DNA of 64,000 nucleotides from Pholiota molesta (Eukaryota > Basidiomycota > Agaricomycetes > Agaricales > Strophariaceae): positions 124,001 through 188,000 of the forward strand of contig JACGCK010000085.1 in assembly GCA_014925825.1 (NCBI GenBank). Direction: 5' to 3'. The notes beneath the pieces are model-generated. The model did no database searches. It saw only the letters and a program-made list of their open reading frames with translations, and was not told where the DNA came from. Of the stretch, positions 12,523 to 64,000 are shown piece by piece. Position 1 is the first letter of the stretch, and the number at the start of each line of letters is the position of its first letter. A program made the translations under genes and the position numbers.

Positions 12523-12541
12523 AATGGCCCGCAACACAAGT

Positions 12542-40097: not shown

Positions 40098-40309
40098 ATC
40101 ATTAGTGCTATTTACTGACTTTAATTCAATAGATGGTTATTAGAGTCACGCGCTTTGATTGTCTTGTTATTCAAGATAATACCACCAATATCTTTTATTG
40201 TATCTGTGGAGTTGAATATTATTCTTAGTTATTGAAATTTGATGACTTTTTGTGTCCTTCTTTGATATGAAAGTTTAAAGAATATAGCGGGCATATTTGA
40301 TTTGGATGG

Positions 40310-41862: not shown

Positions 41863-44165
41863 ATGCCTCCCCGTGGTAAATCTAGTTCGGCTCCCAGCAA
41901 GGCCCATCCCAGCAAAGATAAGCCTCCAGGCAAACGCGGCCGACCTAGAAAAATAAGGCATAGTGAAGACGAAGACGACAAGTATGTTTGGCTTTTACCT
42001 AATCGGTTTGGCTGTTAATAATTTTCATTTTGTTATAGCACTCCAGCAGTACGCCATGTGTCGCACAAATTGGTGCCCAAGTATGTATTTATAATTCTGT
42101 TTATTGAGTTCTAATATTTATTGTTGCCTTTATTATAGAAGTCCTGGTCGAGAGTTTGTTTTTTTTTTTTTTTTTTTGTTATTTTTTTAAATCTTATTCT
42201 AATATTGGCATTTTTCTCTGTCAGGGTACTTGAGGTTTCCGATTCAGATTCTGAACCCAATAAGATTGCATCCAAGAGCAAGAGATTCATAGAGGATGAA
42301 GCTGAAGAAGAAGACGAGGATAAGGATGAGGATGACCAGTATGTTTCTTGTTATCTTGTCAAGGTATTGAGCTCATTGTATATCAAAAGGTTGGAGCCGG
42401 ATGACTCGTAGGTTATTTTTTGCCAGTTTGGTATCTCAAGATTAACTATTATTTTACAGTATGTATCCTGAACAAGCAACACCGTCCCGTGTGATGGTTC
42501 AGAATCCATCTACTCCCCGTACTCCACCTTTGAGTACGCGCCGTAATGCCAGGTAAGTGGTACAAATGACATAGGATTACTCTGTCTTATTCAATATTTG
42601 GTATAGGACATTTACAGAGCGTGATAGTCCGGATAATCCTTTGGCTTCTGGCTTCCAATTCAAGTCCCCGTGCGTATTGTACTTATTTAAAAGGATAGTG
42701 GCATACACTTATTTTGTTATAGAACCAAGCGTCCTAAAGAAGATGTATATGCGTCTCCAATGGTTCCCAGCTCCAAGAAGGGTTTCCCTCAAAGGTAAGA
42801 TTTGATAATTGTAACTTGTACTATATTCTGATTGTATATTTAGCCAGCAGAAGAAGACTAATCCCAAAGCTTTGGCTATTGACGATGATCTCACTTTTGA
42901 TGACATTTCTGATCCGGATGATCTTAGTGCTTCGGATAAGCCTGCTAATGCTACTGGAAGTGTCTTTCAAGAAGATCTCACGGCGTTAACTATCAAGTTA
43001 GTCCCTTTATACTTTGATTTAATTTATTCTTTGGTATATTTATTCCTATTTAGAAAGTTACCGGCCACTTGTGAGGTTGCAAACCCAGCCAATCAAGATT
43101 CCTACTTGTTGAATAGGGGATACTACAACTCTCTTCCTAATTTACAGTATGTGATTAATTTTCAAGTTTATTAATTATTAATTTTTATATGTAGGTTGGG
43201 TACATTGATTCCTTCAAAGGAATCGCCAGCGGTGGGATTGGTGATGTTTACCCATTGGCGTAAACAAATCAAAGGACTCAAAGTCAAGTGCATTGAAATA
43301 TTGATTGCAAATTACTTTGGTATACTTATATTCAATTAGGCCAGCTTTGGAGGCCATTATTTTTGTTGAAGACGACAATTATGTCAATCCATCCCGTGTT
43401 TCTCCCTTGCAACTTATTGGGAGGTCTCTTGGATCTTTCAACCAACGGTTTGAAGTAACAGTCAATCACCGAGACACTGCCTTGTTTTTGTCTCCGGTCA
43501 TGGTGGTTGATTCTTATCTTCAGACCTTCAATCCCAAATTGCAGTATTCTGGCCATTATCTTACTGGTATTTATCATTCTGAGGAATGGGCGCGTTATGG
43601 CGCACTGCTATGTATGTTGGCACATCAGCCTTCAATGAAGACGCAGATCTGGAAAGACGCTGTGTCTTTTACAACAAAGAGTATTGGGGATCCAAGTGAG
43701 ATTCTCTTATTGCCTCTTTTCTTTTTCTAATTGGATTTAATTGAAATTAGAGCGTGAGGATTTTACAGGTCCTGGTTACACGGTTCCAGGACTTCTTAAT
43801 CCAGCATCCAGCCCTTCCAAGATTAGCAGCTCTCAAGCTGGACATAGTGGTAAAGCAAAGAGCAATAGTCGGGTGTATCCCCCGTTGGCTGCCACAGATC
43901 CCAGTAAGTTGATTATTTTAGACTTAGGAATAATCTAATCTCTTCTTTAGTTCTTGTCTACAATGCGTCCGGCAAGAACTTTGAATATACAGCAGAGACC
44001 TTCAATAATTTGTCCAGTCAATTCGTCCTTTATGATGGCGAGGTTCCTTATGGTTCTCTTGCTGTTATTTGTTATTCTTGTCATATTTCCAAGAATGGTT
44101 CTGAGTGGCGTGTTACCAATTACGCTCAGTGGGTCTTGTTGCTTGGTGTCCCAGAAAATAAGTAG
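41863..44165 (+). CDS. Intact 14-exon AT-hook protein, 532 aa
   Basis: Exons: 41863-41981, 42039-42080, 42139-42153, 42225-42338, 42390-42407, 42460-42552, 42607-42669, 42723-42794, 42844-42996, 43054-43146, 43195-43287, 43340-43695, 43751-43903, 43951-44165. All introns are GT..AG with phases that close to a single 1599-nt frame, two of the exons being only 15 and 18 nt. Residues 23-30, GKRGRPRK, are a classic AT-hook that binds the minor groove of AT-rich DNA. An acidic stretch (EDEAEEEDEDKDEDD) and Ser/Thr/Pro-rich segments follow. The C-terminal half is folded-looking (ALEAIIFVEDDNYVNPSRVS, YSGHYLTGIYHSEEWARYGA, GEVPYGSLAVICYSCHISKN) and not recognised. It is likely nuclear. No signal peptide or membrane segment. 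Confidence 0.8.
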
Positions 44166-44816
44166 TGATTGTATAGAGCCCCTTGAATTTTATTGATTAA
44201 ATTGTATGAACATTGAATGACTTTTTTGAGAAATACATTCTTCTACAAGGTTTTAATCATCAACTGAACAATCTGGTGAAGGATTTGTAATGCGCTTTTC
44301 TTGAATTTAACAATATATATTCACAATTTCCCCAAGTACATTTGCAGTTAGTCATGGAAAATACAGATTGTCTGCATCAACGTACAGACATCATTGCCAG
44401 TAACAAGCTTCTGACACCGGGTAGTAATGCAAACTGCTCCTTGTTCTTGTTGCTCTTTTCCATTGCGTCCAGTATAGCGCGGATGTGCTGGACTGCTTCA
44501 CCGTTTTCGTAATTGTCCAGTGTTGCAGAAATGCAGGCGGATTCACCGGTTATTTGAAGTGCACTTTAGCAAAGCACGAATATGTGCAGTGTCATTGGTT
44601 TCTTAACAGCTATCCGGCCGAGTAGTAATAGATGCAGGTGTCTGGCGCCTGACGATCACAGTAGGCGGATTTTGATTACATATACACTGCAAAATCCTGT
44701 GCTTACATATGCCTAGCACCGGGCCCTATGTCGAATCTAAATGGCATTTGTTTCTATTATATACACACTGTAAACTACTGTGCTTATGTATTGCTGCGTG
44801 ATCAACAGGATGTAAA
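44166..44816. other. Intergenic stretch
   Basis: Separates two converging 3' ends. Nothing supported. Confidence 0.5.
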
Positions 44817-47800
44817 TCAGATATTACTGAGTGATGCTCCGGGCAAAAGGCCTTGATGAATAGCTTCATAGAACTTGCACAAAGCGTTTTCGGCCAACAT
44901 ACTGTCAACAGTTATATTTTGCTGTTGGAAGTCTGACATGGATGAAGTCATTTGAGCGATGACTTTGTCAAGGGTGGTTTTGCATTCTTGTATGCTGGCT
45001 TTGGTTCGGCCACTTTTTTTGAGTGGTGTAATCCCCCGGAGATAGACTATACCGTTCATCGATCCGCTGTTGATTGTATGGATACATGTCGCGATGCATT
45101 CAGTGTCGGGTGTTGGGTGAAGTCGGCTACTATAGGTGAGGTCGACTACCAGCTGGAAAGCTCCGATCTGCCCTAGATGTGGATATGGCTTGGGATTGCC
45201 ACGGATAAAGAAATCCAAGGTATCCTTGAAAGTGTGGTCTTCTGATTTGCAATATTCAAGCCAGGACGATTTGTTCAAGGAATCCCAATAGATTTTCGCG
45301 TTTATCGCCCCTCGCTTCGCGTCCGGTGTTCCATATGCCGCCATGTTGCAATAATATTCACGGTCTGGTATCTGAGCGATCAGATCTTCAAATTCATTAA
45401 TATCTTCGAATACGGTCTGCTCGTTTAAAGCGAAAGGAGTTCGGAAGGATACGGCTCGCCATAGTATGGCACTGAATATACCAGGTATCGTCTTGATTCG
45501 ATCCTGGCTGAATGGGCCGTCTGCACCCTTCATTCGTTCGCGAGATGGTGTTTGTTCTCGAAATGGTGAATAACGCTCTGGATGTGCTATTTGCAGCTTC
45601 TGGAGTTCGGTTGGACCCTCAGAACCAATGTTACCATAATAGGCTGCAATGGATTGCCGCCAATATTCACTGAAAAGACGATCTCTGTTGTCTGTAATCG
45701 TTCGCGCCGCTTCGTGAATTGAGTCGTTGAAGGCCACGTCAAGTATATGAGACATGTACTTTATCACTGTGACGGTTTCTGGGGATCCGACTGACGCGTG
45801 CACTCGTAGAGCTACTTCGAAGGGCTCAATGCTGGTACGGGACGGTTTCAGTTTGCGTCGATGGCTTTGTAAGACTTGTTGCTTCGTGCCGTAGCGAAAG
45901 ATGTTCCATGTCGTTTCTAAAACCAGCACCTTTTCACTATATACCTTTGTCAGAGCGTCGATAACCCAAATCCTCCATCTGTCTTCATGGTTTGGGAATT
46001 GGAACCAGACGGACATTATGTCTTGCACAATCGCTATAGTTTCGAGTTGTATGTCTTCTTCGTTCTGACTATATCGCCGTATCCTCGTTATATCCGCTAT
46101 ACGATTGGGTTCAATGTTGTGTATATTGAAGTCGTGTGGTATGAATGTCTGGTGTTCTCGTTGTTGTTGAACCATTTCGTAGACACGGCGGGCGACAGGC
46201 GACATCCATTGGTCGAGCAAGAACCGACTTTCATCTCGCATAACGAGTTTGATTTGGCGCACAAGTTCCTTGTCCATCCAGTCTGATATTTCGAGATGGT
46301 TATACATAATAGCCATTCGACCACAACGAGTTTCGATGTCGAGTCGAGATTGGCAGAGCTCGAGCTTATTGGCCTTTTGTGAAAGTTTCACTAGTTCGTT
46401 GACCCGGTCGTTTTGTAGCAGATCGTTTGCGGGTTCATTTGAAACGGAGTTGGAGGTTTCCATTTCAGATAACGTTTCGCGATGGTTTTCAGTTTTCTCT
46501 TGAGTCGAGGCATGATAGTTACTCAGTATATCATCTTCTAAGGTTGAGTTCTCTTTGACGATCGCTTCAAAATTGAATTGTTTAAGGATGGGAAATTCTA
46601 TGATTCCAATTTGTCTAATTATGCCGCATGAACTCAACGTTAAGGCATACCTTCACCAGCAAAGCTTGCTCTCGTTATTTGGTCGCTGTCAGACACGTTG
46701 ATATCCACATTTACAGAGAAGAACTCGCTGCCATCGGAGTTATCGCCGTCCAACGACGACGAATCACCTCCACTGGGACAACTGGTAGTACGGTGGTTCG
46801 TCGGTGATAGCGATTCATATGCATCATCTAATAGAGAATCATTAGCTGTTTAAGTTCGTGATTCGAACTCGCTAGATACTCACTTGGTATGTCATTCGAA
46901 AGTTCGTTGCTAGCAGCTCTACCCTCGCTGTCATCGGAGCCATCGCCGTCCATCGGTGGTAGCGATTCATATGCATCGTCTAATAGAGATTCATTAGCTG
47001 TTTAGTTTCGTGTTTCGAACTCATTAGATACACACTTGGAATGCCATTTGATGGTTCATTGCTAACAGCTCTACCCTCGCTGTCATCAGAGCCATCGCCG
47101 TCCAACGATGATGAATCATCTCCACTGGAACAACTGGGAGTACAGCGGTTCATCGGTGATAGCGATTCATACGCATCGTCTAATAGAGAATCATTAGCTG
47201 TTTAATTTCGTGTTTCGATATACTAGATACTCACTTGGTATGTCATTCGATGGTTCATTGCTAGCAGATCTATCCTCGTTGTCATCGGGGCTATCACCGG
47301 CCGACGGCGAACTGGAATGACTGGGTGTACGTCTCGGTTGGTGTTTCATAGGTGACAACGATACATACGTATAATCTGATACAGAATTATTAGCTTTTCA
47401 AATTCGCGTTTCGAATTCATTATATACTGACTTGGCCTTTTGTTAGCAGCTCCGTGGTTGCTAATATTGTGACAGTGGACACGTTCTTCGGCCTCTCTTG
47501 GATTGGCCGTCTGACGCGGCGGTGAATCTGTCGCAGGACGTTTCATTGCTCTCGTGATTCGATCGCTATAAGATACGCCTGTTGACGCATATCCGCCGAT
47601 GAATTCGCTGTCATCACAGTTATTGCTAGCTGACGACGACGACGAAGTATATCCAGCAGAATCTCTAAGTGTCGTCATAGGTGGTAGCGAGGCATGTGTG
47701 TGTTCTATCAGGATCGTTAGCATTCCTGGTGCGCGTTTTTTAGTCACTAGATACTGACCTGGAATGCCATACGATGGCTTATTGGTAGGATCTCCCTTAT

Positions 47801-48200
47801 CACTATAATCGATATCATCGGAACTGCCCCTGGACGGAGACCGAGTATTATTTCCGGAGAAAATAGAATGATCCTCTTGATTGGATACTAGCGGCATTAA
47901 TTCGTACGGATCGCCTAATGCAGTGCGATTAGCTATGTTGTTTATCGTTTTTTAAGTCGTTAAATACTGACCGTTAATACCATCCGGTGACGAATTGCCT
48001 TTGGCATCTTCGTAATCGATTAACATCTTCGTTACCGAATTGGCGTCATCATCATCGGAACTGCCTCTATACGACGATGGAGCTGTTTGTCCATAAAGGG
48101 TGTCCAGTCCTTGTGGCGATTGTGCATTGGCTTTAGCTGTTACGTGAGTTTTAGCTCTATATACTTATCTGCATTTAACCCTTGCATACTAACCGATCAT
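44817..48200 (-). CDS. Intact nine-exon gene, 977 aa, with duplicated symmetric exons; unknown function
   Basis: Exons on the minus strand: 48200-48194 (ATGATCG, 7 nt), 48130-47972, 47914-47759, 47704-47432, 47375-47235, 47179-47036, 46979-46884, 46827-46651, 46597-44817. All eight introns are phase 1, and the seven internal exons are multiples of three. Several internal exons are clearly duplicates, each giving (N)DAYESLSP...SDDSEGRA.SNE.SNDIP, so the N-terminal third is a Ser/Asp-rich, probably disordered repeat. The 593-residue C-terminal part is globular: VWFQFPNHEDRWRIWVIDAL, IFSAILWRAVSFRTPFALNE, REYYCNMAAYGTPDAKRGAI NAKIYWDSL, PHLGQIGAFQLVVDLTYSSR. I remember this pattern from uncharacterised agaricomycete proteins but know no function. 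The tiny first exon is the least certain part. Head of a run of three minus-strand genes. Confidence 0.8.
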
Positions 48201-48291
48201 GCGAAATGGCAGCTGCTCCAGTGCTTATTAATTAGGTCATCGTTAGCCCAAGATTTACATGTATAGGATAAGTGTGAACTCGCACCTGTGT

Positions 48292-50610
48292 TCAATTTGC
48301 TGGTTTTTCGCTGGCCTGCCCTTTTATGTATGTAGCCTTGGGAAGATTTTGCGGCTTCTTGACATTTTTCTTTGTCTTCTTGTTCTTCTTCTTCGGTGGT
48401 TCACCAGAATTCGTGTCGTCGCTCTCGGACGATCGTTTTCTGGTTCGTCGTGGAGCTCTGGCTCCTGGGTACAACAACTCGTCGAATAATTCGTCGGCCA
48501 CCATATCTTCCTCGCCTTTGTCGTCCTCTTCATTCACAGCATCCGTACCTCCCGGTCTTTCTTTGAGCACCCTGAGTCTCTTGCTTGCATATGGATCAAG
48601 GCGCTCCCTTTCTCCGTAGGAGAGTGTGATGTCCTTGACTGGTAAAGATTTCTCGTCGATGTCTGGCAACATATTCACTATATCATGTTCTGAGAGTGGA
48701 TCGACTTTCTTGCTGACAACACACTGGGGAACTGATCTTGCCAATCTGTCTTGATGGTCGTTCAGCTCGCGTATGATCTGCTGCCTGATCGGTGTCTGGT
48801 CGACGAGGTCCTCGATGTATTCTCCGGATTGATGTAGAGATCGGCTAGCGTCCTTCTTTCTGAATCCTGGGGCATCAATCCATGGCCCAAGCGTTTTACG
48901 CCCGTCTTGTACTTCAGAGCTGATAGCAGACAGGAATCGGTCAGAGTCGAGCTGCACTCTATAACGACGAGGAAGCTGAGATATAACGAAGTTGGTCATC
49001 AACAGCATTTCCCTTGCAACGAAGTCGACATGGTGCTCCTGACTTGAGATCGAGGCACCCTCGCGCGCATACGTGGCCATAGGATCTTTAGGTTCTCCAA
49101 CTGGGTACAGTCTGAATCTCCTAATTAGAACTTGTTCAATTCGGGAGACGTAAGGTATCACGCACTCTGGGAAGCGCATCTCTGGCGTAATATTGATGGC
49201 ACCCGATTTACCAGCTCCAGACGCAAGCGGAAAAACAGCTTCACCATTTAATGCTAATCGCTGCGGATAATTCACCATGACCATCCTAGTTTCCCAGTTC
49301 TCTCTTCTTTTTCCTGTGGGAGGTAAGGGCGCAGTTCCTCCATGAAAGTGTAGACCTGAGAAATTGAGGGCATGAAATTCTTCAAGATCTGCAAACACCC
49401 TCGCGATAAGCAAAAACATCTGGCCTGGACAGTAGTCTGCAGGAATGTCGGGGGATGAAAAGGTGTTCGTGAAGCATCCTGGATGGTCCAACGGATCGAT
49501 ATGAACACCGCCAGCACGGCCAATGGACTTCATGTCGCCAGCTATGACCCATGTTCAATATAGTTCATACTACGTCTTTGGGTAGATTTCGTACCTTCGT
49601 CGTGATTTTGGGCAGCTGCGATGTTGAGTTGCACAGTGGAACATCCTGGGACGGACGTGCTGCCGCAACGCAGAGTGTTTGTGATACTGGTCCGTTGCTT
49701 CAGCTTTTCCACTAGATCTGAAGGGCCTGCATTGATTGAGGCTGAAGCTGCTTCACTACCCGACTGAAATGACCACTGTTTATTAGTAAATACATCGACA
49801 TGAACAATGTTTTAACTTACGTCAAGTAATCGATATCTGATGCTCAGATTTTCATCCCATACCCTGTCAACGTCTCCTACTTTGCTAGCCCGAGCAGGAG
49901 CCACGATCTTTGGTAGGTTTTGTCTAGATGTTCCGAGTGTTTGCGCTCGATTTTTGCCTCTGGCTCTATGAGATCTCTCAATCTCAACGCCTCCGGAATA
50001 ACCGTGACGTCTATTCCATTTACTTTTCTTGTCCGTCCTTGAGTTTCGATCTCCCAACGCGTCGTTTCGTGCATTCGCGATTTTTACGCGTGTTGAAGGG
50101 TCGGTGCTGCTTTCAAAATCAGTCACCATTACAGGATAGCGAAGTCGTACTCACTTCTTTGTTACCCATAATTTGATAAAATCTTCACTGGGTCGACGGG
50201 CGTCTTGGTTGATTCGAGTACAGGCCGCAAAAAGGTAATCTCCTGGATACATGCGGAGATAACCTTGTTAAAGTCTATGTTATTAAAACTGGATTTGTCG
50301 ACTATTACTGGAACATACCCTGTTTCTCCAACTGCGCCGATGTTTTACCGTGTGGTATCTCGAGCCCTTTCTCATACTCCAGATTCTTCTTCATTGCTGT
50401 TAAGGAAGTTTCCATGAAGAAAACGTATGCTCGTTTTCCGTTTAAAGGAAGTAGTGGGTGGTTGAACGCTTCATATATTATCGGAGCGTCCTTTGGGCGG
50501 CCTGGTAACGGTAGCACGATTTCTCTGTATCCGGTGCTCGATTCAGGAGAGGGCGAATGTGAATCCGACATTGTTGGGTCCAGAGACGGTGAGCTTGAAT
50601 GAGTTGGCAT
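48292..50610 (-). CDS. TET/JBP-like 2-oxoglutarate/Fe(II) dioxygenase, 706 aa
   Basis: Exons on the minus strand: 50610-50319, 50263-50155, 50109-49821, 49775-49595, 49541-48292; introns are 45-55 nt and phases close exactly (2121 nt). The catalytic core is in the last exon: residues 301-312 GGVHIDPLDHPG give the HxD iron ligands (His304, Asp306). About 50 residues on, FSGLHFHGGTAP offers the distal His, and Arg376 in ETRMVMVNYP is a candidate 2-oxoglutarate anchor. The spacing and the PxDYxPGxFxL segment between them match what I know of agaricomycete TET/JBP proteins, which oxidise 5-methylcytosine or thymine in DNA. The C-terminus ends in a strong basic stretch (PPKKKNKKTKKNVKKP), a likely nuclear signal or DNA contact. 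The N-terminal half is Ser- and Arg-rich, not recognised. A non-nucleic-acid hydroxylase remains possible. Confidence 0.65.
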
Positions 50611-50700
50611 CGCTTATAGAACAATCTGGGTGTAAGATGAGGGTGCTGTGACAGCCGTTTTCCTGCAAGAAAATGTTTAGTTTCAGACATGTCTTAATAA

Positions 50701-50760
50701 TATGACGTACTGGCGTCGAAAACGCCGTCGAGACGCCTTTTTCGACGCCAGTACGTCATA
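50701..50760. repeat. 60-bp palindromic element
   Basis: TATGACGTACTGGCGTCG at 50701 is mirrored by CGACGCCAGTACGTCATA ending 50760. Half-sites of 30 bp match 27 of 30. It lies 90 bp upstream of the dioxygenase start. A twin is at 59892-59951. TA at both ends suggests a Tc1/mariner-type miniature element. Confidence 0.8.
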
Positions 50761-51086
50761 ATGTCTGACAATGTCTTCTGATATTGTCGGTAGGTGCTAA
50801 AATCTATATGAAATCTCTTAAGTTATTTAGATGTGCTATAGTGTTGGCGGGTGTATGGTCATACAAAAAAATACCCTACGTTGGCCATTTTGTACACATA
50901 TACCTCGTTTTTAACACAATGTATTGCATATAGTATGTGATGTTCATTCATGCCCTGTGTATATCAGCGTCAAATGTATTGAAGTGAAAGGTAAACGAAA
51001 GAAACGTACCGAAGGTACCTCATAATTGCCCTATTATCCTTGTCTGTTTAGCATTGAATTTTTTGATACATGGATCATCTTATCTA

Positions 51087-51420
51087 TCATGACCATTGAT
51101 ACTTAGTAAAGCCCTGTGCGAGATTACTATAGGGAAGATCCAGTTTTTTTTTCTTTTTAAATAAAAACGACCTAATTTTGTGAATGGCATATTGCTGATC
51201 CTCGATCTTCTTGACTTGGAATATTTGCCCTTTCAACTCACCTACAATGCATATGACAGGACATCGGGGTAACTGCACGATACTCATGCTCGATATTTAA
51301 TATGTGAATTTATTACAAAACCGTACTCGATCATGTGTCTTGTTAATGAATCAGTTGTGCATATTTAAGCCATATGAAATCAAAAAAGACGTACCTAACG
51401 TATATTCGGACATCGTTTGA
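51087..51420 (-). pseudogene. Duplicate of the SPT5-like C-terminal exon
   Basis: Minus strand: a short exon MSEYTL (near 51410) with a GTACGT donor, then after AG near 51287, CPVICIVGELKGQIFQVKKI and YAIHKIRSFLFKK. This aligns with VVPIVGDLRGRQFKVKLIEG and TLHTVGKRLRKW at the end of the adjacent SPT5-like gene. An A-run (Lys repeat) follows. It is too short to act alone and may be a relic of tandem duplication. Confidence 0.45.
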
Positions 51421-51428
51421 TTGCGATA

Positions 51429-54208
51429 TTATGCCCGTTTTCCTGGATATACGCGCGCGAGATCGTTGCGGGATAGAACCGGATCGTGCTCCCATTTACG
51501 TAGTCGTTTGCCGACTGTATGAAGAGTACAGAGATCCCCTTCAATGAGCTTGACCTTGAATTGTCGCCCTCTTAGATCGCCTACAATAGGTACAACCATG
51601 TCATTGAGGTTATCAGGACGAAGCCAAGAAATCGATTCGAGAGAAACAGTGCGGGTCTTCATCTTATCTCTAACGACGATCATGTTGCCTTCAACGCCCC
51701 TAAATTCGAGGATGTTGTTCGGGTGTTCTTGTTCGACTAACAGGAATCGCAGCTCGCTAAATGACGAGTCTTCCAACCACGTAGGTGGGCCAGGTCTGAG
51801 GGAAGACGGGTCCCATTGATAGATTATTTCGCGTTCAGTACTTGGACCAGCCAAAGGTTCCGGCGTACGCGAGGATGGGTCCCATGCTGGTGAAGATGCC
51901 AAGGTCGGACTGGCAGGCATAGGAGTGCGGCAAATGTTTTGCGATGGGATTCCATGAGATATTGGGTAAGAGGTCGATATGGGATACATGTTGAGCATTC
52001 TCTGTGTCCGTCGCGAAAAGTCATTCCTATTTTGTAATATGAATATATATTTATGGCGGGAAATTCAGATGAAGCTCACCAAAGAAGCAATTGCGTTAAA
52101 TGGACTGAAACGCGTTGTCGGTTTTGATTATTGAGTTCGATTTCAGCAGTATTGTCTACGCGAATAACCTTGATAATCCCCTGTTTGCCTTTATATTCGG
52201 AAGGGCCCACAACCATTGCTTCCTTTCCAATATAGATGCGGTTTTCATCCTGTCCACCTACCCATCCAGCGTTGGTGTTGCGGGATCTGAGCGTAAGGGT
52301 ACTAGGGGAGCTGTAAAAACGTGTTTGTGAACGCAAAACTGTAATCTGCATATCATTTGAATATGGTGAATATGGATAAACGGTATAGCTCACCTCTGTT
52401 TCGTTGCGGGTGTTAACAATGGTTACATCTTCGTCGGACGTTTTCACGACCCATCCAGTATTTCCCATATATTCTCCTGAATGAACTTCCACTTCATCCC
52501 CTATAAGTAAATGCATTCGGATTTCGTTTATTGGTAGAAGCGATGTATCATCTTGAGATTCTATGAAGACAGATGCCTCGTCGTTTGTGATGTTAGTAAC
52601 AGTGCCTGTTAGGCCCTGATATATTCCAGAAATTACTTGCACGCGGTCATGAATTCGAATCTGGCGTTGAGCTATTTCCCGCTCAGTTTGCTGGTACGTC
52701 GACTGCGCTAAGAACGCTGATGCTCTAAATGCCTGTAGAACCTCTGATGTTGGTATAGGACGTTCGTGAGGAGGCGTCAGTTGAATGTCTGATATATCAG
52801 TTATGATGAAACCATCTGGGCTGAAATAATAGCCCATATACGTGTAGTGTTCTTGATGCCCTACTTCGGTAGCATTTCCACTATGAGAACATATATCGCT
52901 CCATTTGCATGGCTTAGGATGCGGTCGAGTGGCCTTTTTTTCAGTCGAATGTATCGCTATTCGGGGTATGATAATAGCCACAAGATGTGACCCGCGAAGA
53001 GCGATAAGTGCTGTATCTCCTTCGTATATTTTCCATTTTCCAGAGTCCCGACATATTGTTGCCCACGTCTGCGGGGAATATGTACGGTCGCGCAGTGAAA
53101 CACGCTGCAACATCGTGTCGGAAGGAACCCGTTTCATACCAGATGAATATAAATCTGCGTAAGACTGCGCGAAATTGACAGCTTCCAAATGAGTGTTCAT
53201 CTCCACGTATATGCGGCCTGGCAAGTCCTTGTGACCATAAATGTAGTTTGGCCGGGACGACGTCGAAGAAGAATCGGTGGACTGTTTCCTAATTTTGTCA
53301 CAGAAGGTTTCTTCTTTACCGGGCTAAAGCAAGAGTTCTTCAGGTTGGTTTACAAATTAAATATTTAGCACTCACAGTACATTGTATTTCCCATAGAAAT
53401 TCAGTCGCTCTCACTCGTAATATCACTTCATCGCTGTACCACGTATCGTCCCCTGTTGATGGGTTTGCTTTCTTCTCGTGATATTAGTCAAGTATAATGT
53501 AATTTGAAATCTGCTTATTATCGCATACCTTTCCCCGTCCTTTCGCGCGTTCCAGCAAAGCTTCCCAATCTGTTTCTTCAATAATCCTCGGTTCAGATAA
53601 CGCATGCAAATGTCTTTCATATACTTGCTCGTTCGTAGTTTCTGTGTTTACCAAATCCCTTTCGTTAATCGTAATATCTCGCCTGTATACAGTGTTATTA
53701 CCATTCTCTTCATGGCTCTCGCTTTCTTCTGTGCTTTCGTCTTCCGAACTGTCACCTGGGGCTGCTTCAACATCCAGAAAACGCATAGTAGCCTGTGAAG
53801 TGAAGTTAATACACTATAAATGGGCGCCCACACATCACTAACCTTCCCTTTCCCTTTGCGTTGTCGTTTGGATGGCCGTCGAATGGATGACCGTGCTGGC
53901 TGCCGTTTGTTCGATTGTTGCAAGCTTGATGCGAGTGTGTCGTGCCCTCGATCGTCTTCAGGTTCATTTCCTACTAGATTTTGACCTTAATATAAGTCTC
54001 CGCGTATGCATATGTTATTACCATTGTCATTGTCGGTATTGCCTGTATTGTCCTCACCCACTGCAATACCTAAGAACCCTTTGTACCCTGCCAGTTGAAG
54101 TCAACGTCCGTGCAATATTTGTGTATTTATCTGCCAGTCAAAGCCAACCTTTTCTCTCGTTGAGCGTTGGCGTTTCGTTGGTAGTGGTGATGTTGAATAG
54201 TCGCTCAT
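51429..54208 (-). CDS. SPT5-like NGN/KOW transcription elongation factor paralogue, ~790 aa
   Basis: Minus-strand exons: 54208-54149 (MSDYSTSPLPTKRQRSTREK), a short unsure exon near 54047-54022, 53973-53843 (basic, GKGKGK-rich), 53792-53529 (acidic, SSEDESTEESESHEENGNN, typical SPT5 N-terminus), 53474-53376, 53323-52394, 52345-52080 and 52026-51429. The NGN domain begins LWEIQCTPGKEETFCDKIRK and continues LPGRIYVEMNTHLEAVNFAQ. KOW-type segments follow: GDTALIALRGSHLVAIIIPR, RVQVISGIYQGLTGTVTNI, GDEVEVHSGEYMGNTGWVV, GKEAMVVGPSEYKGKQGIIK. The C-terminus has Pro-rich repeats SSPAWDPSSRTPEP, like the SPT5 C-terminal repeat, and a last KOW-like unit. SPT5 with SPT4 clamps RNA polymerase II; this looks like a lineage-specific paralogue, not the housekeeping copy, as sequence and neighbours are unusual. 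The 48-nt intron 52346-52393 is in frame and stop-free. Confidence 0.8.
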
Positions 54209-54279
54209 ATCTGTTATTAATCTATATACTACGCTGTGTCTAAATGTATCTAAGTGCGTGTTGATAGTGATGGTCGGAA

Positions 54280-54640
54280 AAAAAGCCTGCGTTGACATCC
54301 GACGGCCATAAATGTCACGCGGATTTAGGGCAGGTGTGGTGGATAAATAACTGCAAGCCGAACTGGCAAGCCAGGATCTCCGACCAAAACGAGGCCGGCA
54401 ACGATGCCGGCGAGCATATTACCCCCGTCGTCGCCCAAGAGGAACAAACGCCCTCGGAATTCAGCACCGGTGTCACCTCTGATACTGTGAGCGCCGACCA
54501 TGCACAAGGAATAGGAGTCTGCGATCACCTAACCCAGTCTCTTTGGGGACAACAACCCGGGCACGCCCCATCACGACTTCTTCAACACCATCGACGATGC
54601 GCAGTAGGACAAGAACAGACACTCTAAGAAGATGAGAGGA
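54280..54640. other. GC-rich island, open on both strands
   Basis: Clearly GC-richer than its surroundings. The plus frame ends in a protein-like tail GDNNPGTPHHDFFNTIDDAQ; the minus frame (54325-54528) is also open. It could be a leftover 3' end of a gene or a captured fragment. Not recognised. Confidence 0.25.
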
Positions 54641-55068
54641 TGATCGCATTCAGCAACAAATAAATAATATTGTAGTAAGCTGAGCAATGCTCGAACAGAA
54701 GTTGCAAGAAAAATGGATACTTGGAACAAATGTAACAATAGTTTGAGTGGTTTAGCGTGTGTTTGAACGGAATTAGCAACAACTTTAAGTTAGATGGATG
54801 GTTGTTATTGAAATTACTATAGGTAATTCGGTATGTAATATATCAGAGCTTCTACAGATCGCGCCTGTAGATTATCCACAGGTGTGTCCGGCTGGTAATT
54901 GTACACATTGCATTTTGATAGATCTATAGATGGCCGCTGTATAAAATATATGAATCTGCCTACAGATGATATAACTCAGCTCGTTCAGTAGAATTTATAT
55001 ATAATTTCTTAAGGAATTATCTTATTACAGCTAATAATTTTTACAGCCAGATCTATACAAAGCTGTTA
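54641..55068. other. AT-rich intergenic stretch
   Basis: Nothing supported. Confidence 0.5.
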
Positions 55069-55432
55069 GCGCTGGGGCCTTAGACAAACAAAAGCAAGCA
55101 GTTGGGACATGGCTGCAATTTGCATGGCTTATATAATTCATTTATATCTAATCTAATCGAATATGATGGCGCTGGGGCCTTAGACAAACAAAAGCAAGCA
55201 GTTGGGACATGGCTGCATTTTGCATGGCTTATATAATCCATTCATATCTAATCTAATCGAATATGATGGCGCTGGGGCCTTAGACAAACAAAAGCAAGCA
55301 GTTGGGACATGGCTGCATTTTGCATGGCTTATATAATCCATTCATATCTAATCTAATCGAATATGATGGCGCTGGGGCCTTAGACAAACAAAAGCAAGCA
55401 GTTGGGACATGGCTGCATTTTGCATGGCTTAT
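55069..55432 (+). repeat. 100-bp tandem satellite, 3.6 units
   Basis: Units start with GCGCTGGGGCCTTAGAC at 55069, 55169, 55269 and 55369, an exact 100-bp period with very few differences. The last unit stops at TGCATGGCTTATG. It ends about 50 bp before the promoter-like block of the first JmjC gene. A diverged inverted relative is at 38227. Confidence 0.95.
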
Positions 55433-55481
55433 GTAATGTATATCTGTCTGATCTTATCATGATCATTGCGATAAAATACGA

Positions 55482-55530
55482 CCACACAAGAAAACGGTCC
55501 ACCCTAATGTTTACATGGTATAAAATACTG
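55482..55530 (+). promoter_or_regulatory. Conserved promoter-like block upstream of JmjC gene 1
   Basis: CGACCACACAAGAAAACGGTC, CCACCCTAATGTTTACATGG and TATAAAATACTGGCCAC are shared in order with the block at 60005-60060 upstream of JmjC gene 2. TATAAAAT is a TATA-box candidate about 120 bp before the ATG at 55643. Confidence 0.5.
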
Positions 55531-55642
55531 GCCACAGCTTGCTTGTCATCTTTTTTCCCAATCAACCAAGGCAAACTGTGCCTGATTATCGTTGAGCTCA
55601 TTCCATTAACGTAGATTCTAAGTGAAATATATAAGTGAGAAT

Positions 55643-58600
55643 ATGACAACCTCAGCCGGTATGATGAATTGAACATGTAAAGTATATATGTATAACTTGA
55701 ATTAAGACCTACCACTATAGATGGATCGTCCGTGCCCCGTCGTGCACTATGCGAGGAAATCACAAAAGCTTCGTGGTATACTGATGCCGTGTTGACACAA
55801 ACGGACTTCGGTGATTGTGTCAAGGCCAGGCCTGATATCGAGGTGTGTAGTTACTCTCTTAACACTCGAAATATATAGAACTTTGGTTGACATCAATTCC
55901 CTGTAGGCGTTGGTTCATAATCTTTTGGTTCAGGAGGACATGATCTTCAATAGCACAAAACAAGTGTTCTTGGATATGAGAACAATCTTGGGTCTTCAGC
56001 CTGTAACGAGTGCTCCAACACTTGTTTCTAAGGAATCTGTGCCTTTAACCGGGAAGGCCTGGGCCAGACTATATCAGTTGAATTTGTACTACCGTTTGTT
56101 GGATCGAATCTGGCTGTACAATTCGCCACAAACATTCAACATTGTAAACCACGCAAAAACGCTGGAGAACAGTTCGTTCAAGGTGTGTGCGCTTCGAATT
56201 CTAATAAAATATCTTACATATCTTCCGGGTAGCCCTGGCAAATTATCGAAAATCTACAACAGTTCTTGAAAGAAAAGCTGCCTTTAGAAGCCAAGTCAAC
56301 CAGAACGTATGGACCCAGGTTGCTAGGAAGTGGATTACTCCAACAATTGAAGGATCTTGCATTGCTCGGACAATCAGGGAATGTCGCCAAAATACACCAC
56401 AATATCTTGATGGCGGCTCTGAGTATTAACGTGCTTTCAGAAGTAAAGAAGCTCGACGATCCGATGCAAGATGCTACAGAACTAGAACACGAGCAGGAAA
56501 GCATTGTAGAAATCATATCGCATGCACAGTAAGTATTATAATGTTAAGTGTACGCTTTGCATTGAATTGAGTTTACCGAATAGTCTCACGCGGGGCGAGG
56601 GAGATATCCTTCGCAACATGTTTGAGTGTGAAGCAGACGGAAAGGCCTCCCGTGTTGCAATTCACCGAACGTTGCATATCGCGATGGGAATATCTCCTCT
56701 TTTCTTAATGGCGCCCTATAAATTAGACCGGCAACGATGGTCAATTGCCGACATATACAAGGTTCCAGCTTGTCGTATTCTTCGGATATAATGATACTTA
56801 TCTGATTTGTTAGGAGTCGCAACAATTGGGCAACTGGCGTTCACCACTATTAGTGAGAATGGAGAAGACAGTATTGGAAAATGTGTTTGGTGTGGCAAAT
56901 GGTTCGTTGGATGCGTCTCAGGCATTTACGGCCATAATTCAAAGCCTCCCTTGGACTGAGATTAACGATATGCTTGCCGATGACCCTACAAATACAAGAT
57001 TCCGACGCAGTACGCATATTCGTTTTGCATAATAGTATAGTAACTAACGAATCGATCTCATTTGGCGGAAATGTAGTTCATTCATCGGATGCGATACCAC
57101 CTAATGTGTCATTGACAACCAGTGTTGACAAAGGAAAAGGAAGAGATGTGTCAACTTACCAAACAGATACCGTCGAGCAAAGGATGGAATCTGGTAATAA
57201 CGATGATGAGCCGATGGACACAAGTATCGATGGCCAGGTAGGGAATGACAGAGATGCTGACAATCGCATGAATGTCGATGCTCATGCCGTCCAGCCTTTA
57301 CCAAGAAATTCTTCACAGTCTCTGCGTTTCATTCTTCCACCCTTATGGAAGGTCAGGACTGTACCAAGAAATTCTTCCGAGTCACACCGGATTACCATTC
57401 CGTCAACATCGAAAATACCAAAGCGCGGATCTACGTCGTCATCAGGTCTAACGAAACAAAAAAACACTAGGCGCAACCAAAAAGTTGCTGGGTCTTCAAC
57501 TCCAAGCGCCGAGGGTTTGCTCCGCAGTATACCATTTCCCGCTGGTATAATCAAACCGGAAGTGGCAGTCAACCTTGAAGTTGGCAAAGGTTCTAGACCT
57601 GCTCAAGAGCTGCCTGTCCAAACATTGTTTTGCGGAAAGGAACCGCCCACAAAGTTGTGTTCCGTGCCCATGTAAGTAGTGATTGTTCATATCCGTCTTC
57701 ATCTATTGATCGACGCCGTAGTCGCCAGATATACTTGATTTTTGGAAGAGGCATCTGGAATTAATCGAGCGTGGTTATATCAATAGACTGGCACCTCATG
57801 TCATTGATAATACCTCATCAACTTTTAGGATCGTGTCATACAGTGATATGCAGTCTATGTCAATTACCGAGAAGTTGCAATTGTTGCGCAGGGGTCCAAT
57901 CCTAGAGATTGATAGGCCATTCATCCCGCTATCATTCGATAAGAAGGGGATGAAGTCACTACATTGTTCATTATCCGATACAATGCCAATTCAAAGTAGG
58001 TGTTAATTACGATTTACTTTACTATTATATGACGCTCCCTATACGCAGATCAATCTGGGGAATATCATGAATCAGTGGCATTCGGCACTCTAAATATGAT
58101 GCTAGAAAGTCAACCCGGGACACCGTTAAACGCATTGAATCTACCAATGCCTGGTGGTTTACAATCAGCAGGCGATTTGTCGAGTGACAATGTCACATGG
58201 CAGGAGGCGATACACTCCCGGCAAAGCGTCCAACATTATCTATACCCTGGGGCGATAATGCGTTGGGGACTTTGCGCCACTGCTGGAGCGTACCATACAT
58301 TTTACATAGACAGCGATGGTTTCGGCACATATGTGGATGTCATGACGGGGAAAAAAGTGTGGTTAGTGATGCGGCCTTCAAACAACAATATCGATGACTT
58401 TTCAGAGTTCGGGGAGATCACCAGATATGTTGGGGAGTCTTTTGATCTTTTGAATGTCGGGGACAACAGCAGGATTGAGGCGGTTGTTTTAACCCCTGGA
58501 ACTCGACTGTAGGCTTTCCTGTAATCTCTCCGACATTTTTTCTTAATACTACCTAAATCGACAGATATATGAGGCCAAATACGATGCACGCCGTTTACAC

Positions 58601-59610
58601 ACCCGAAAACTCAATATGCCACGGTGGCCACTTTTACTCAATGTCGACTCTGAAAGACACTTTATGTGGAATTATTCATGTATTCGTTGGTTACCATGAT
58701 GTCACGAACAACGACGATCGCGCACATTCGCGATTTTTACTCCGCGAAATGATCGTCTTTTTCTTTGAAGGCCTGGAGCAACAATGTCTTGATCCGGATG
58801 GTTCGTCTCTTCTAATTATATATTACAATATTCTTTACTATAACACATTATCAGATCCAGCATGGGAACATCTTCCTCATTTAAATCCGAATGTTTTGGA
58901 CGAAGCTGACGCCAACACTATGCATGCAGTGGAAGAACTGTTCGCAGCATGTAGCTTGGCCATATTTTCGAATGTGTTGGATGCACGAACATATTGGTAC
59001 CACGATCTCGCCCTTAACAAACACCAAGTAAACATCAACAACAGGAAATGGAGCATTACGATAGGAACGCAATGCCTGTAGAAGACCGCAATGCGTGTGC
59101 GCAAACTAGAGGATTGGCATACAGACTGCTGGAATGGTTTGCTAAACATTATTCCTTTGTTCCACTGAAAGGACAGACGGTGGTGAATTGTATCCAGCTT
59201 CTGGAGCAAAAACTTGCCGAGCAAGCGTATGCGATCTATATGGCTAAAGCGATGGCTGTGGAAGGCAAACATCGAGGTGTGCTCAACTGTTCATTACAAG
59301 GAGTAAAGCATCAGTTGCAGGGCGTTTTCAAACCAACTCTACCGCATATAATACTCTGGGACGCCTTTTTGAACAAGAAACGACCCCGCAATACGTGTAT
59401 GCTGACTTCAAAGATTGGGGTATCGAAGTTGTACCACAAACATCCGAATATGTGCCTGCAGAAAACGGTGCCGGCATATGGAAGCGAACACCTCTGGATC
59501 GCAAGTTTCAAGAAGGGTTTAGAGTCAATTTTGACACCAGCTGTGAGTTTTGAATTATGCCATTTTCATGCCTACATGTTACTTACAATACACACACAGC
59601 TCATATGTAA
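55643..59610 (+). pseudogene. JmjC-domain gene 1, frameshifted and lacking the HxD histidine
   Basis: Exons: 55643-55658, 55721-55842, 55907-56182, 56233-56528, 56584-56761, 56814-57009, 57077-57671, 57722-57995, 58049-58508, 58565-58800, 58855 to about 59590, 59600-59610; introns are of usual size, that after 57009 with a perfect ACTAAC branch. The JmjC fold spans the exons at 58049 and 58565: GLCATAGAYHTFYIDSDGFG, then VMTGKKVWLVMRP and PNTMHAVYTPENSICHGGHF. JmjC enzymes bind Fe(II) through HxD...H; here the first ligand is Tyr (TAC 58303-58305) where gene 2 has His (CAC), so activity is probably lost. One-base frame breaks near 57645, 59040 and 59325 separate conserved segments (FRAH, MEHYDRNAMPVEDRNACAQT, YADFKDWGIEVVPQTSEYVP). 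An SP/TP- and acid-rich linker lies at 57080-57600. Decayed paralogue, or indel errors in the assembly. Confidence 0.75.
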
Positions 59611-60004
59611 TGCAATTTTAATGTACAAGAGAGCTGCCTTGCTAAACGACGTTTCTTTGTCGGACTGCTGGGGCAGGGTCGCCAAGGGCACGCGTCAGCA
59701 GGGCAAGTGAGGGGCTCGGGCAAGGGGATGGGCACTGGGGCCCTTGGTTTTTATAGCACGAATGTAATTAGAGTAAGGTCCGACATGGGGTACTCCCCGA
59801 CTGGACACTAAATTGACACATAAAAAAAAAAAAAAAAATACTATGAGATTTTAAGTTCACGATTGCATGTATATTCAAAATGTCTCAGTATTATGACGTA
59901 CATGCGTCGAAAATGGCGTCGGGTCGCCTTTTTCGACGCCTGTACGTCATAATGTAAGTCACGGTTAAGTCACGGGTAGAAGCTGATGGCTTGACCGGGA
60001 AACA
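59611..60004. other. Intergenic stretch between the JmjC genes
   Basis: Contains an A-run (59823-59839) and the 60-bp palindrome at 59892-59951. Nothing else is seen. Confidence 0.5.
59892..59951. repeat. 60-bp palindromic element, second full copy
   Basis: TATGACGTACATGCGTCG ... TTTCGACGCCTGTACGTCATA, exactly 60 bp like 50701-50760. It lies downstream of JmjC gene 1 and just before the promoter block of gene 2. Confidence 0.8.
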
Positions 60005-60060
60005 TGACCACACAACGAAACGGTCGGCCCTAATGTACCCATGGCATAAAATGTCTCACA
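60005..60060 (+). promoter_or_regulatory. Conserved promoter-like block upstream of JmjC gene 2
   Basis: TGACCACACAACGAAACGGTC, GGCCCTAATGTACCCATGG and CATAAAATGTCTCAC parallel the block at 55482. The spacing to the ATG at 60163 is close to that in gene 1. Confidence 0.5.
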
Positions 60061-60162
60061 AGGTTGTTCTTTTTTTCCTTCCCATCGCCCAAGTTCGACG
60101 CGTCATAACGTACATTAGATTAGAACAAGTTATAATTAAGGATACTACGATCTGTTAAAAGA

Positions 60163-63100
60163 ATGACAACCCAACAAGGTACGGAATACCAACCATTAAG
60201 TATGTTGCTGTGGTTGAGATTTGCTACAGATGGATCACCTGTTCCCACCCGTGCGCGATGCCAGGAACTGGCGGAAATGCCATGGTACTCCGATGCCGTT
60301 TTGACTCAAGCGGACTTTGGAGCGTGTATTGAGGTGAAGCCTGAACTACAGGTACGTGCTTAGACGGTATCTATGCTTTATTGGATTTTGACTAGTATTT
60401 AGGGTTTAGTTGACGGTCTGCTGGCTTTTGAAAAAATCGCCTTCGTTAGCCATGACCAACCCTATTTGGATTTGATGAGGGTCCTGCGCTGCGTTATCAA
60501 TCTCCAGGAAGCACCTCCATGGTCACCGTTAAAGCAAAAGTACCAGAAAATGGGTCAGCTATGGGAAAGCTACATCACATGCTCATATGTTACTGGTTGC
60601 TCGATCGTGTATATTCATACCCACACCGTGACATATCCCTCGCGAGCAACATAATCCGTTATGAGAACAGGCTCGAAATTTCTAAATTGCCGGTATGTAC
60701 TTGTTTTGAGCCCGAGTGTCAGATCGAAACTTAGCATAACAAAGGATCATCATTATCGCCATATCGAGGATATCCGGCGGTTGTTGCAAGAATTCAGAAC
60801 GAATGCTAGTCCTGCTCAGCCGACAAATAGGAACAAAAGTGTATCAAAGTCACACTCTACGATATACGGTCCAAGGCTTCCTCAAGGAAGTGGCATCCTT
60901 CAGCAATTGAAAGACCTGGTGGCACTTGGTCGGAACAACCGCCTTCAAAAGATAGAACGAAACTTCTTGTTGACAGCTATGATGTTCAACTGGATGTCTT
61001 TTACTGGTAGTCCTGGTGCCCAGTCTGCCGGTACATCCAATCCCCATCAGCGGTCCGATAGCTCGGAGGAAGAACAAAATAAAGAACTTATAGCGATCGC
61101 ACGGTATGATCCATCTAACATATAATAACATCTTATAATCGTTTTCTACAGGAACACTACGGCTTTCAGTATGAGCGAAGTAGAAGTGCTAACAAACATG
61201 TTCTTATCTTCATCGGGTGGCAAAATGAAGACATCATCCGTGCACAGATCAGCACATATAGCAATAGCAATAACACCGATGTTCTTAGTTGCACCTATTG
61301 AACTCGATAAATGTCGGTGGTCCCTTACAAGCATCCACCAAGTACGTGACGATGCTCTTGTCTATTTATATGTACTCATTAAATTATACAGGAAGCTACT
61401 CGATTGGGTAACATATCTTTCCCCTTGCTTAAGCAGATTGAGTCTACGATATTCGATGGTGTTTTCAACCTTGCTACAGGCTCGATGGATGTGATGCAGG
61501 TCATTGCGCATATACTGGACAATTTGCCCTGGAACGAAATAGACGCCCTGGCTTTGGATGATCCAGTTAATGTTAGATACCGACGTCGTATGTGACTATA
61601 TTCATATGATTTTGGTTGTATACTGATCGTTGTATAGTTGCTACTAGAGCTCCGGCTTCTGCAGTTCCTTTCACCACTGGCCATGCTATGTCATCAGTGG
61701 CGTCTTCATCCTCGATGGGCGGTGTACCACCAACACCTTCTCGACCAAAATCTCCGGCTGTAGCTTCTAAACAGCCTGTTCGTCATACTACACCATCTCA
61801 ACTTGTACCTCCAAGCGCTCCTACTCAGTCGAGTATGTCGCCTCTAACACCAAGCCCATCGACACCGACACCATCTCAGCCTGCTTCTCACAATCCCAGT
61901 CCCAATACTACGCCCGCTCCGCCTGCCTCTCATGAACTAACTCCATCTATGCCGTCACAGTCTCAGGCTCCTTCTCGTGAACCCGGTCTCAACTCTACGC
62001 CCTCTCCATCTCATACTCGGCCACCCACTCCCACTTCTGAAGACTCTCGAGGTCCTTCTCAGACACCCAGTCCCAATCGATTTCAACCTCCTGCTCGGAA
62101 ACCCCGTTCTAGTTCGTCATCGTCAACTGAACCGTCGTCCGAAGGCAATGGTCCAGATAAACCAAACAATGTGGAACATGGATAACGAAAATGGCGATAA
62201 CGGAGACGAAGGTGACGATGACGAAGATGAAGAAGATACAATGGATGTTGATTTGCCTCCCAAAGAAACAAGTACTTCAGTCTCTTCAACTCCCATGGGT
62301 AGCTCGGATGAAAACAATGACGATGATATGGAGGTTGACTTCCCACTTAAATCAAGGAAGACAACATCGCGCACTACATCCACACGATCAAGGCGCGATA
62401 CCACAAAAAATCCTACTGGACCGAGGAAATCACGAAAGCGAAAGCATGACAACATTACTACCAAATCTTCCGAGCATGTTCGCGACAACACGCCCATCGT
62501 TGTTGAGGAATATATATCCATTCGAAACACACCGTTCCCAGAGGGTATAAAATTTGAGATAACAGAACCTAGTCTTGAAGTCACCGATAATCCTGTACCT
62601 CTGTCAGAATTACCTCCAGTGAGGGTGTTCTGTCCCGAGGGAAATGTTCATGATGTTACTTTCCGTGCACATGTATGTATTCTTTTTGCGACTATATTTA
62701 TCTTTATCATCTTCTTATTATTTGTTATTTCATAGAATCCCTTTATGTTAGAGTTCTGGAGAACGCATGTGAAGAAGTTCGAGGAGATGTATATTGACGG
62801 AAAACCCTTGCATAAGGCTAATCCTGATGCATCAGCATTTACGGTGGTGACGTATAGTGTCATGCAAACGATGTCAACAGCCGCCAAATTGAAATTATTG
62901 CAACGGGGAATGATTCTCGAAACGGGTCGTCCAGTCAAGCCGATTTTATTCGACAAAAGGGCATGCATTCATTACAATGTTCGTTGGTAGGAGTTGTGGA
63001 TATACAGGGTATGATATGATTAAATTGGATTGATCATTTGTCTCAACGTCTCTATAGATCAATCACTAGATGGATCGGAGAATATGAATGATTGGATGGA

Positions 63101-64000
63101 AAAGGGGACACTCAATATGTTACTCCAGTGCAAGGATAGAAAGGCGCTAAATGTGCTTGATATTCCTATGCCTGAGGGCACACATAGCGCTGAGGATTTT
63201 TCATCTGACAATGCGGTGTGGTGGGAGATGTTACAGTCGCCTTGGAATGTTGATAGCACCGCTGAGCGTCCGACTGCCGATATGCATTGGGGTCTTTGCG
63301 CAACAACTGGTGCGGGACACACCTTCCACATGGATAGTGATGGCTTCGGTACCTACATCGAGGTCATAACGGGCGTAAAAGTGTGGCTGGTAGTGCGACC
63401 AAAGGATTGCGAAACGGGTGATTATTCCGAATTCAGGCGAATCGATAAATTTATGGGTGAGGATTTCGACCTGCTTGACGTTGGTGAATGTTTGGTAGAA
63501 GCTGTTATCCTGACACCTGGTACCCGATTGTAAGCCTTTTCAATTTATTAATTCTGTAATCATTTCTAACGTTGATATACCACAGGTACATGCGCCCAGG
63601 TACCATGCATGCTGCATATACCTCTGAAAATGTGATTTGTCATGGAGGACACTTCTATGCAACAGCCACGATGAAGGACACGTTATGTGGACTCATACAA
63701 TCATTGTTGCATCCAACTACATGACCAACACCTACCATTCCGGCTCGCGTTTACTCCTTCGACGTATCATAACCTTTTATTTTGAAGGACTTGAACAAAA
63801 TAAGTGGGATATGGATGGTTAGTGTAATTTTAGTTCTCTATTTAGAACGTTTTTCTAATTCGCAAATAGATCCTGTATGGGAGCATCTCCCAAAATTGAT
63901 GCCCCTGGATGCAGCATCTGATGATCCAGATGTAAACTCGATGGAGCATGCAGAAAATCTATTCTCTGCTTGTTGCTTGGCGATATTTTCAAACGTCTTG
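60163..64000 (+). pseudogene. JmjC-domain gene 2, HxD intact but frameshifted; runs off the window
   Basis: Exons: 60163-60178, 60230-60351, 60403-60692, 60745-61103, 61152-61341, 61392-61587, 61638-62672, 62736 to about 62980, 63058-63529, 63586-63817, 63870 onward; positions and phases mirror gene 1. The core GLCATTGAGHTFHMDSDGFG keeps the Fe ligands His (CAC 63327-63329) and Asp (GAT 63333-63335), followed by VITGVKVWLVVRP and the distal His in GTMHAAYTSENVICHGGHF. The long exon at 61638 encodes a Pro/Ser/Thr-rich linker, an acidic run (DDDEDEEDTMDVD) and a basic KSRKRKHDN stretch, likely nuclear. Exon lengths of 290 and 1035 nt do not keep phase, and conserved segments change frame near 60505, 62165 and 63700 (LCGLIQ to IIVASNYMTNTYHSGSR). 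Either a recent pseudogene or uncorrected indels; sense of the protein is otherwise conserved. The C-terminus lies beyond 64000. Confidence 0.7.

Follow-up and report, generated by a model that had tools for sequence, protein, structure and literature searches.

A cluster of chromatin-type genes in Pholiota molesta lies within a mobile element, probably a large Helitron2-type transposon

Introduction

In a 64,000-nt stretch of the Pholiota molesta genome, genes for a TET-like dioxygenase, an SPT5-like NGN/KOW protein and two JmjC-like proteins lie side by side with an orphan gene, which raises the question of what holds such a set together. An earlier note on this DNA had proposed a repeatedly duplicated, possibly mobile unit. 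Our analysis revealed that these genes form the inner part of a mobile element. The account that we favour, with somewhat better than even confidence, is that of a 36–37 kb Helitron2-type rolling-circle transposon of P. molesta whose cargo helps it to escape host silencing.

Genome comparison

The window, i.e. the whole 64,000-nt stretch (contig C610, positions 124001–188000), was compared with the 65.6-Mb P. molesta genome, the 625 contigs of which are referred to here by number (C3, C168 and so on). Copy counts are lower bounds because the genome searches score the best candidates alone: the cargo comparison gave 38 matches from the best 36 of 68 candidates, while the best 39 of 338 were scored for the left region, the best 40 of 180 for the helicase region and the best 40 of 69 for the 3′ end. 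For the locus counts of the orphan, TET-like, KOW and JmjC-like genes, exon pieces were merged by hand. The contigs C64/C168 and C113/C99 may be haplotypes. Pfam scans covered a subset of the frames of the window and its relatives.

Ends, insertion site and replication genes

The left end of the element was located with the help of a dispersed repeat (37863..38056, +) that served as its insertion target and has copies of 95–97 % identity on C97, C239, C374 and C340 and of 87 % on C389. The copies on C97 and C239 are continuous through the insertion point and represent empty sites; the window junction was therefore placed, within the limits of the T run, at ...CTCTACATT^TTACGAGTC. The 5′ terminus (38057..38079, +) reads TTACGAGTCTTTACGCAGTAAAG and includes the inverted repeat TACGAGTCTTTAC, its first base being ambiguous in the T run. 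The terminal 24-mer starting at 38056 was found at 47 places in the genome at up to three mismatches, as against none for the reversed control, and DNA matches on C113, C99 and C189 begin at window positions 38053–38057. The insertion site is T-rich (...CTCTACATT^T), as seen at the 5′ junction only, in comparison with the two empty copies. The 5′ terminal region (38057..38831, +) varies between subfamilies, being present in C113, C99, C189 and a piece on C587 and unmatched in C168, C64, C583 and C593. Matches to the latter four start at 38832, which was considered as an alternative 5′ end and ruled out, their own termini lying ~1.7 kb farther out than the point that matches 38832.

Because the contig end cuts the window copy, its 3′ half was taken from C3, C116 and C168. 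The C3 copy reaches past the window; its KOW protein matches that of the window at 100 % identity and its TET-like protein at 98 %. With the 3′ end read in C3, at least 18 other long copies match positions 1–547/548 and stop there; at least 18 shorter copies match from position 275 and end at 547/548 (14 copies), 550 (three copies) or 564 (one copy). The four copies whose ends were read, namely that of C3, a short one nested on C211 and two window copies near 9.0 and 12.5 kb, all finish with ...CAACACAAGT, beyond which the sequences diverge. By this 3′-end comparison, the two window sequences (8978–9276, −; 12243–12541, +) each represent the 3′ terminus of a short, non-autonomous member of this Helitron2 family. 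The common outer ends to be looked for in a mobile unit are thus present on both sides.

The C3 copy also encodes the replication protein expected of a Helitron, a Rep/PIF1-type helicase. An open frame of more than 1000 residues returned Pfam hits to DUF6570 (E value 5.1e-42) and, below the cut-off in a piece that cuts the domain, to Helitron_like_N (E value 0.0072); it contains the sequence HMHMM, which we take to be an HUH-like motif. The frame following an insertion matches the PIF1 helicase (E value 2.7e-26). The insertion itself (C3:146704–148675, 1972 bp) has many relatives in the genome and is specific to C3, as its two sides adjoin in C116, C70, C242, C168 and C615. A sequence related to it sits where the C113 and C99 matches stop.

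We assigned the element to the Helitron2 type on account of three features: asymmetric terminal inverted repeats of 13 bp (5′ TACGAGTCTTTAC, with its partner GTAAAGACTCGTA lying 33 nt short of the 3′ end), a hairpin after GTAAAGACTCGTA near the 3′ end (predicted 5-bp GCCAT/ATGGC stem; z-score −2.0 for a 78-nt stretch, with 5 of 200 shuffles as good) and the target sequence, T-rich at the 5′ junction. Helitron2/Helentron elements, as described in excerpts of PMC5148889 and PMC4067079, have asymmetric or subterminal inverted repeats of ~12–16 bp, a 3′ hairpin, a T-rich target and abundant non-autonomous copies; however, their lengths of ~5–14 kb are below that of the P. molesta element. On C168, which was read in part, the 5′ terminus at 83839 and the 3′ end at 46997 delimit ~36.8 kb, between which lie the left module, the orphan, the TET-like and KOW genes, one JmjC-like match and the helicase. 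A size of ~36.6 kb is obtained for the window copy when its right part is borrowed from C3 minus the insertion. The unit is accordingly larger than the earlier note had drawn it, starting at 38057 and ending, judged from C3, ~10.7 kb past the window. A 5.4-kb derivative on C593 retains both ends. Cargo sets on C587, C433 and C106 were considered as further sets within ends and rejected, as the nearest ends pair as shorter elements (C587:14884–17657, C433:291051–294708 and C106:34518–42192).

Cargo genes

Inside the left end lies a module of three intron-containing genes (38832..44669; ~38.9–40.1 kb, +; 40.5–41.6 kb, −; 41.86–44.17 kb, +). It is 96 % identical to C168/C64 (90 % in the last 0.7 kb), 97 % identical to C583 and 99–100 % identical to C113, C99 and C189. 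No Pfam family was matched over the cut-off in the parts scanned; the third gene encodes GRPRK, presumably an AT-hook-like motif.

The orphan gene (44820..47951, −) consists of a 611-aa last open frame (44820–46652) and small, tandemly repeated exons upstream (46.7–47.9 kb). The orphan does belong to a protein family, whereas the length of 977 aa given in the earlier note was not reproduced. Tandem exon–intron units rich in Asp and Ser occupy 46725–47642, in the 5′ part of the gene. Annotated P. molesta models include one of 771 aa with the same exon and one of 951 aa, in which a 47 % identical paralogue is fused to a TET-like half; model P0001, on C189, is 100 % identical to the window orphan. 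Relatives were found within P. molesta, together with one ENA protein at 25 % identity. The orphan profile returned no match among solved structures, its AlphaFold model (predicted local distance difference test, pLDDT, 39) was unusable, hinting only at an all-helical protein, and a PHROGs search gave chance-level matches only (best E value 0.12). A 5-hydroxymethyldeoxyuridine DNA kinase (PF18723), which would have implied thymine hypermodification, was considered as an identity for the orphan and rejected: the match (E value 0.014) is below the cut-off and was taken as chance because it was repeated only in the near-identical P0001 (E value 0.022) and in none of seven other relatives (P0002, P0003 and five further family frames).

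The next gene (48292..50571, −; annotated model P0004, 685 aa) encodes a putative Fe(II)/2-oxoglutarate dioxygenase. The pattern H-x-D...H...R, which we take to be the iron and 2-oxoglutarate residues expected of such an enzyme, is invariant in all seven aligned relatives. We call the protein TET-like, and not a TET/JBP member as such, because no TET/JBP profile, solved-structure or fold match was obtained; this much of the earlier TET/JBP-like assignment stands. Protein searches with the orphan and TET-like sequences, which were of limited sensitivity and did not include KOW or JmjC-like queries, named only P. molesta, P. conissans, Ephemerocybe angulata and the one ENA protein.

The SPT5-like gene lies at 51429..53813 (−; outer exon limits approximate). 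Its best solved match is yeast-type Spt5 (7nkx_Z, whole-sequence E value 3.7e-12), residues 1–317 of 415 aligning with Spt5 297–632, and several KOW families exceed the Pfam cut-off. No NGN family was matched in the Pfam scan, and the NGN domain was read from the Spt5 alignment, in which NGN and KOW are collinear with Spt5. The NGN/KOW identification made earlier is therefore upheld.

Two JmjC-like genes follow, gene 1 at 56974..59081 (+; core 58033–59081) and gene 2 at 61610..64000 (+; core from 63.0 kb), the latter running past the window; the outer exons of both are approximate. They are indeed paralogues, 53 % identical over the core. In the window copies, which alone were read for iron ligands, gene 2 has HMD and a later His, and gene 1 has YID and a later His.

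Copies and co-occurrence

The orphan was found on 12 contigs, the TET-like gene at 15 places, the KOW gene at 19 and JmjC-like genes at 24. On C610, C189, C350 and C3, the KOW and TET-like genes occur together at 95–100 % identity, and C211 holds a 97 % identical TET-like gene with one stop and KOW pieces of 79–97 % identity with stops. The orphan exon is identical on C189, and its first 245 of 611 residues are present on C350 at a contig end.

The proposal of a duplicated unit implied that homologues should co-occur within 30 kb more often than chance, and within the P. molesta genome they do. A TET-like gene lies within 30 kb of 10 of the 12 orphan loci (0.16 expected at random), an orphan within 30 kb of 12 of the 15 TET-like loci and a JmjC-like gene within the same distance of 10 of the 19 KOW loci. 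Other pairings are weaker (orphan/KOW 5/12, orphan/JmjC-like 3/12, TET-like/JmjC-like 4/15), in the case of orphan/JmjC-like partly because contigs end. These counts include non-independent copies of one element, and several loci are cut by contig ends. The two orphan loci with no TET-like gene nearby are those on C113 and C99, where another transposon apparently splits the orphan and no more than 5 kb of contig remains. The idea of a repeatedly duplicated, mobile unit is borne out by copies that are nearly identical and share their outer ends, by the Rep/helicase gene and by unoccupied target sites.

C587 (22624–54053) has diverged counterparts of three genes, the orphan, the TET-like gene and the helicase (the last with 55 % amino acid identity), arranged in the order of the window element. 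Pairs of KOW (−) and JmjC-like (+) genes, ~4–7 kb apart and 27–40 % identical to the window genes, lie on C52, C10, C433, C61 and C157, and possibly belong to another element family.

Function and origin of the cargo

Control of DNA methylation or transcription, the activity first suggested for this set, is predicted from domain resemblance, and an anti-silencing role of the cargo appears the likeliest. On this model, the element would copy itself through single-strand rolling-circle replication; the TET-like enzyme would oxidise modified bases in the DNA of the element; the two JmjC-like proteins, one of them perhaps without catalysis, would counteract repressive histone marks; the SPT5-like protein would aid or redirect RNA polymerase II across silenced stretches of the element; and the orphan may be a DNA- or protein-binding partner. 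TET+ transposons have been proposed to remove silencing marks (Kojima 2025, excerpts of PMC12730594), and the SPT5-like and JmjC-like genes would widen this proposal to include chromatin and polymerase II.

The excerpts of the same paper describe TET+ Helitrons of fungi that likewise carry a TET/JBP-type dioxygenase, the Agaricales example being one Helitron2 lineage in Agaricus bisporus, and a diverged PE-type TET group that includes Helitrons; unlike these, the P. molesta element carries several further genes. Proto-Helentron-Pi of Phytophthora infestans (PMC4067079, in part) is also a rolling-circle element with a chromatin gene (SET domain) beside its Rep/helicase; however, it is ~14 kb long, has one chromatin gene and has Helitron1-like ends. 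As an analogy in the way of working only, the VANDAL transposons of Arabidopsis encode their own anti-silencing function, VANC (excerpts of PMC10398659 and PMC5735166). JmjC-like gene 1 may be likened to fission yeast Epe1, which, according to part of PMC7192584, is a JmjC protein that opposes heterochromatin and in which one His of the iron triad is naturally replaced by Tyr; the Epe1 change is Y370, whereas gene 1 is altered at the first His of H-x-D, apparently another position. TET-bearing Helitrons and a SET-bearing Phytophthora relative are thus already known; this combination of cargo and size was not found in the open-licence literature searched.

Cargo and backbone differ markedly in age. 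The cargo DNA (orphan, TET-like, KOW and JmjC-like genes) is 66–69 % identical to C168/C64, whereas the backbone is 96 % identical in the left module, 98 % in the helicase (C3 versus C168) and 92 % in the 3′ region. Rough ratios of non-synonymous to synonymous divergence (dN/dS) between the two element lineages (window versus C64/C168) are 0.18 and 0.17 for the orphan, 0.22 for KOW and 0.08 and 0.25 for two stretches of the TET-like gene. The cargo is therefore considerably more ancient than the backbone, and the three genes compared have stayed under constraint; most simply, this would be explained if cassettes had been exchanged among elements through recombination or template switching. A more ambitious version, in which the cassette is a complete anti-silencing kit working at three levels (base modification, histone marks and polymerase II elongation) and lineages re-arm young elements with old, diverged cassettes, is conceivable, and we hold it more tentatively.

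Several observations count against an anti-silencing Helitron2. At the level of the element, the window copy is itself cut at window-equivalent 67858, where its contig ends, and the 5′ palindrome is predicted to fold no more stably than shuffled sequences (56 of 200). As for the enzymes, the TET/JBP assignment is drawn from motifs: seven of eight family members gave no Pfam match at E≤10 and the eighth a chance-level, below-cut-off OrfB_IS605 hit (E value 0.44), comparison with solved structures returned nothing but a cytochrome b match (E value 1.5) and the AlphaFold model (pLDDT 29) was unusable. Both JmjC-like genes, called JmjC paralogues in the earlier note, fall below the JmjC_2 cut-off of 22 bits (gene 1, E value 0.048, 13.6 bits; gene 2, E value 0.0054, 16.7 bits), and gene 1 has Tyr in place of the first iron-ligand His. 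With regard to selection, the dN/dS ratios are rough because synonymous divergence in the cargo comparisons (1.2–2.3) is near saturation, a C363 pair was saturated and gave no ratio, and the estimates are limited to the orphan, KOW and TET-like genes. In-frame stops occur in pieces on C113, C99, C211 and C189 (some may be introns), and the orphan frame of C168 is broken where that of C64 stays open. Finally, selection could act through a benefit to the host.

Two other explanations accept the Helitron. In the first, which we consider unlikely, the cargo would be a passenger, consisting of host genes that were captured by accident and do nothing for the element. Helitrons do capture gene fragments (PMC6431247, in part), one such probably lying at 54357–54610, and the in-frame stops in several copies would fit; however, the genes are long and contain introns, the three tested are under purifying selection and the TET-like/orphan pairing recurs in diverged loci. 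Excerpts of the same 2019 review describe full-length gene capture by Helitrons as exceptionally rare. We give about the same low credence to the second, in which the genes would serve the fungus, in defence or in the control of transposons, and would only have been spread or trapped by the Helitron. Purifying selection fits a host benefit equally well, and the KOW/JmjC-like pairs on C52, C10, C433, C61 and C157 have no bounding Helitron ends shown; against this stand the near-identical, multicopy state with common Helitron ends and the scarcity of orphan and TET-like relatives in other species, subject to the limited searches described above. Segmental duplication or unmerged haplotypes in place of transposition are very improbable: C64/C168 and C113/C99 may each be one locus, but the sharp common ends with different flanks, the empty target repeat, the Rep/helicase gene and the many short non-autonomous copies all speak for transposition. 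A KDZ-linked TET unit can practically be dismissed, since, although agaricomycetes are reported to contain KDZ elements that bear TET/JBP genes (excerpts of PMC12730594), the vehicle carries a Helitron Rep/helicase, no KDZ transposase was found among the frames Pfam-scanned and the KDZ-associated relic placed at 30784 in the earlier note returned only below-cut-off matches over an acidic stretch and no KDZ match.

On the preferred reading of an anti-silencing Helitron2, the size of the element also stands out. Fungal Helitrons are typically 6–7 kb and reach 14 kb, with 39 kb recorded in maize (excerpts of the 2019 review, PMC6431247); by comparison, the present element has ~37 kb, several open genes and three genes under selection. 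It offers an SPT5-like protein on a mobile element and a cargo that long predates its present carriers, and opens two questions to testing: whether transposons bear complete sets of anti-silencing genes, and why TET-like enzymes of fungi are found on transposons.

Other features

Between the KOW and JmjC-like genes, 54357..54610 (+) is probably a captured fragment of another gene, with 82 % identity to C102:48223–48478. The match is contiguous across the break point of the C500 copy, which is without the left half, and this comparison suggests that the window arrangement is older than that of C500. Tandem repeats of 100 bp follow at 55051..55450 (+), with one inverted copy beyond the window (window-equivalent 66045–66131). 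Three hairpins of ~60–76 nt, ATGACGTAC...GTACGTCAT, lie inside the element at 38716, 50702 and 59893 and resemble tiny inverted-repeat insertions.

Outside the element, a repeat of ~0.9 kb lies beside it at 35786–36688, with 26 matches of 79–95 % identity among the candidates scored. Copia-type retrotransposon pieces were detected at 15307–18843 (+) and 28227–29489 (−) of the window (RVT_2, E value 1.2e-65; gag, E value 5.9e-16).

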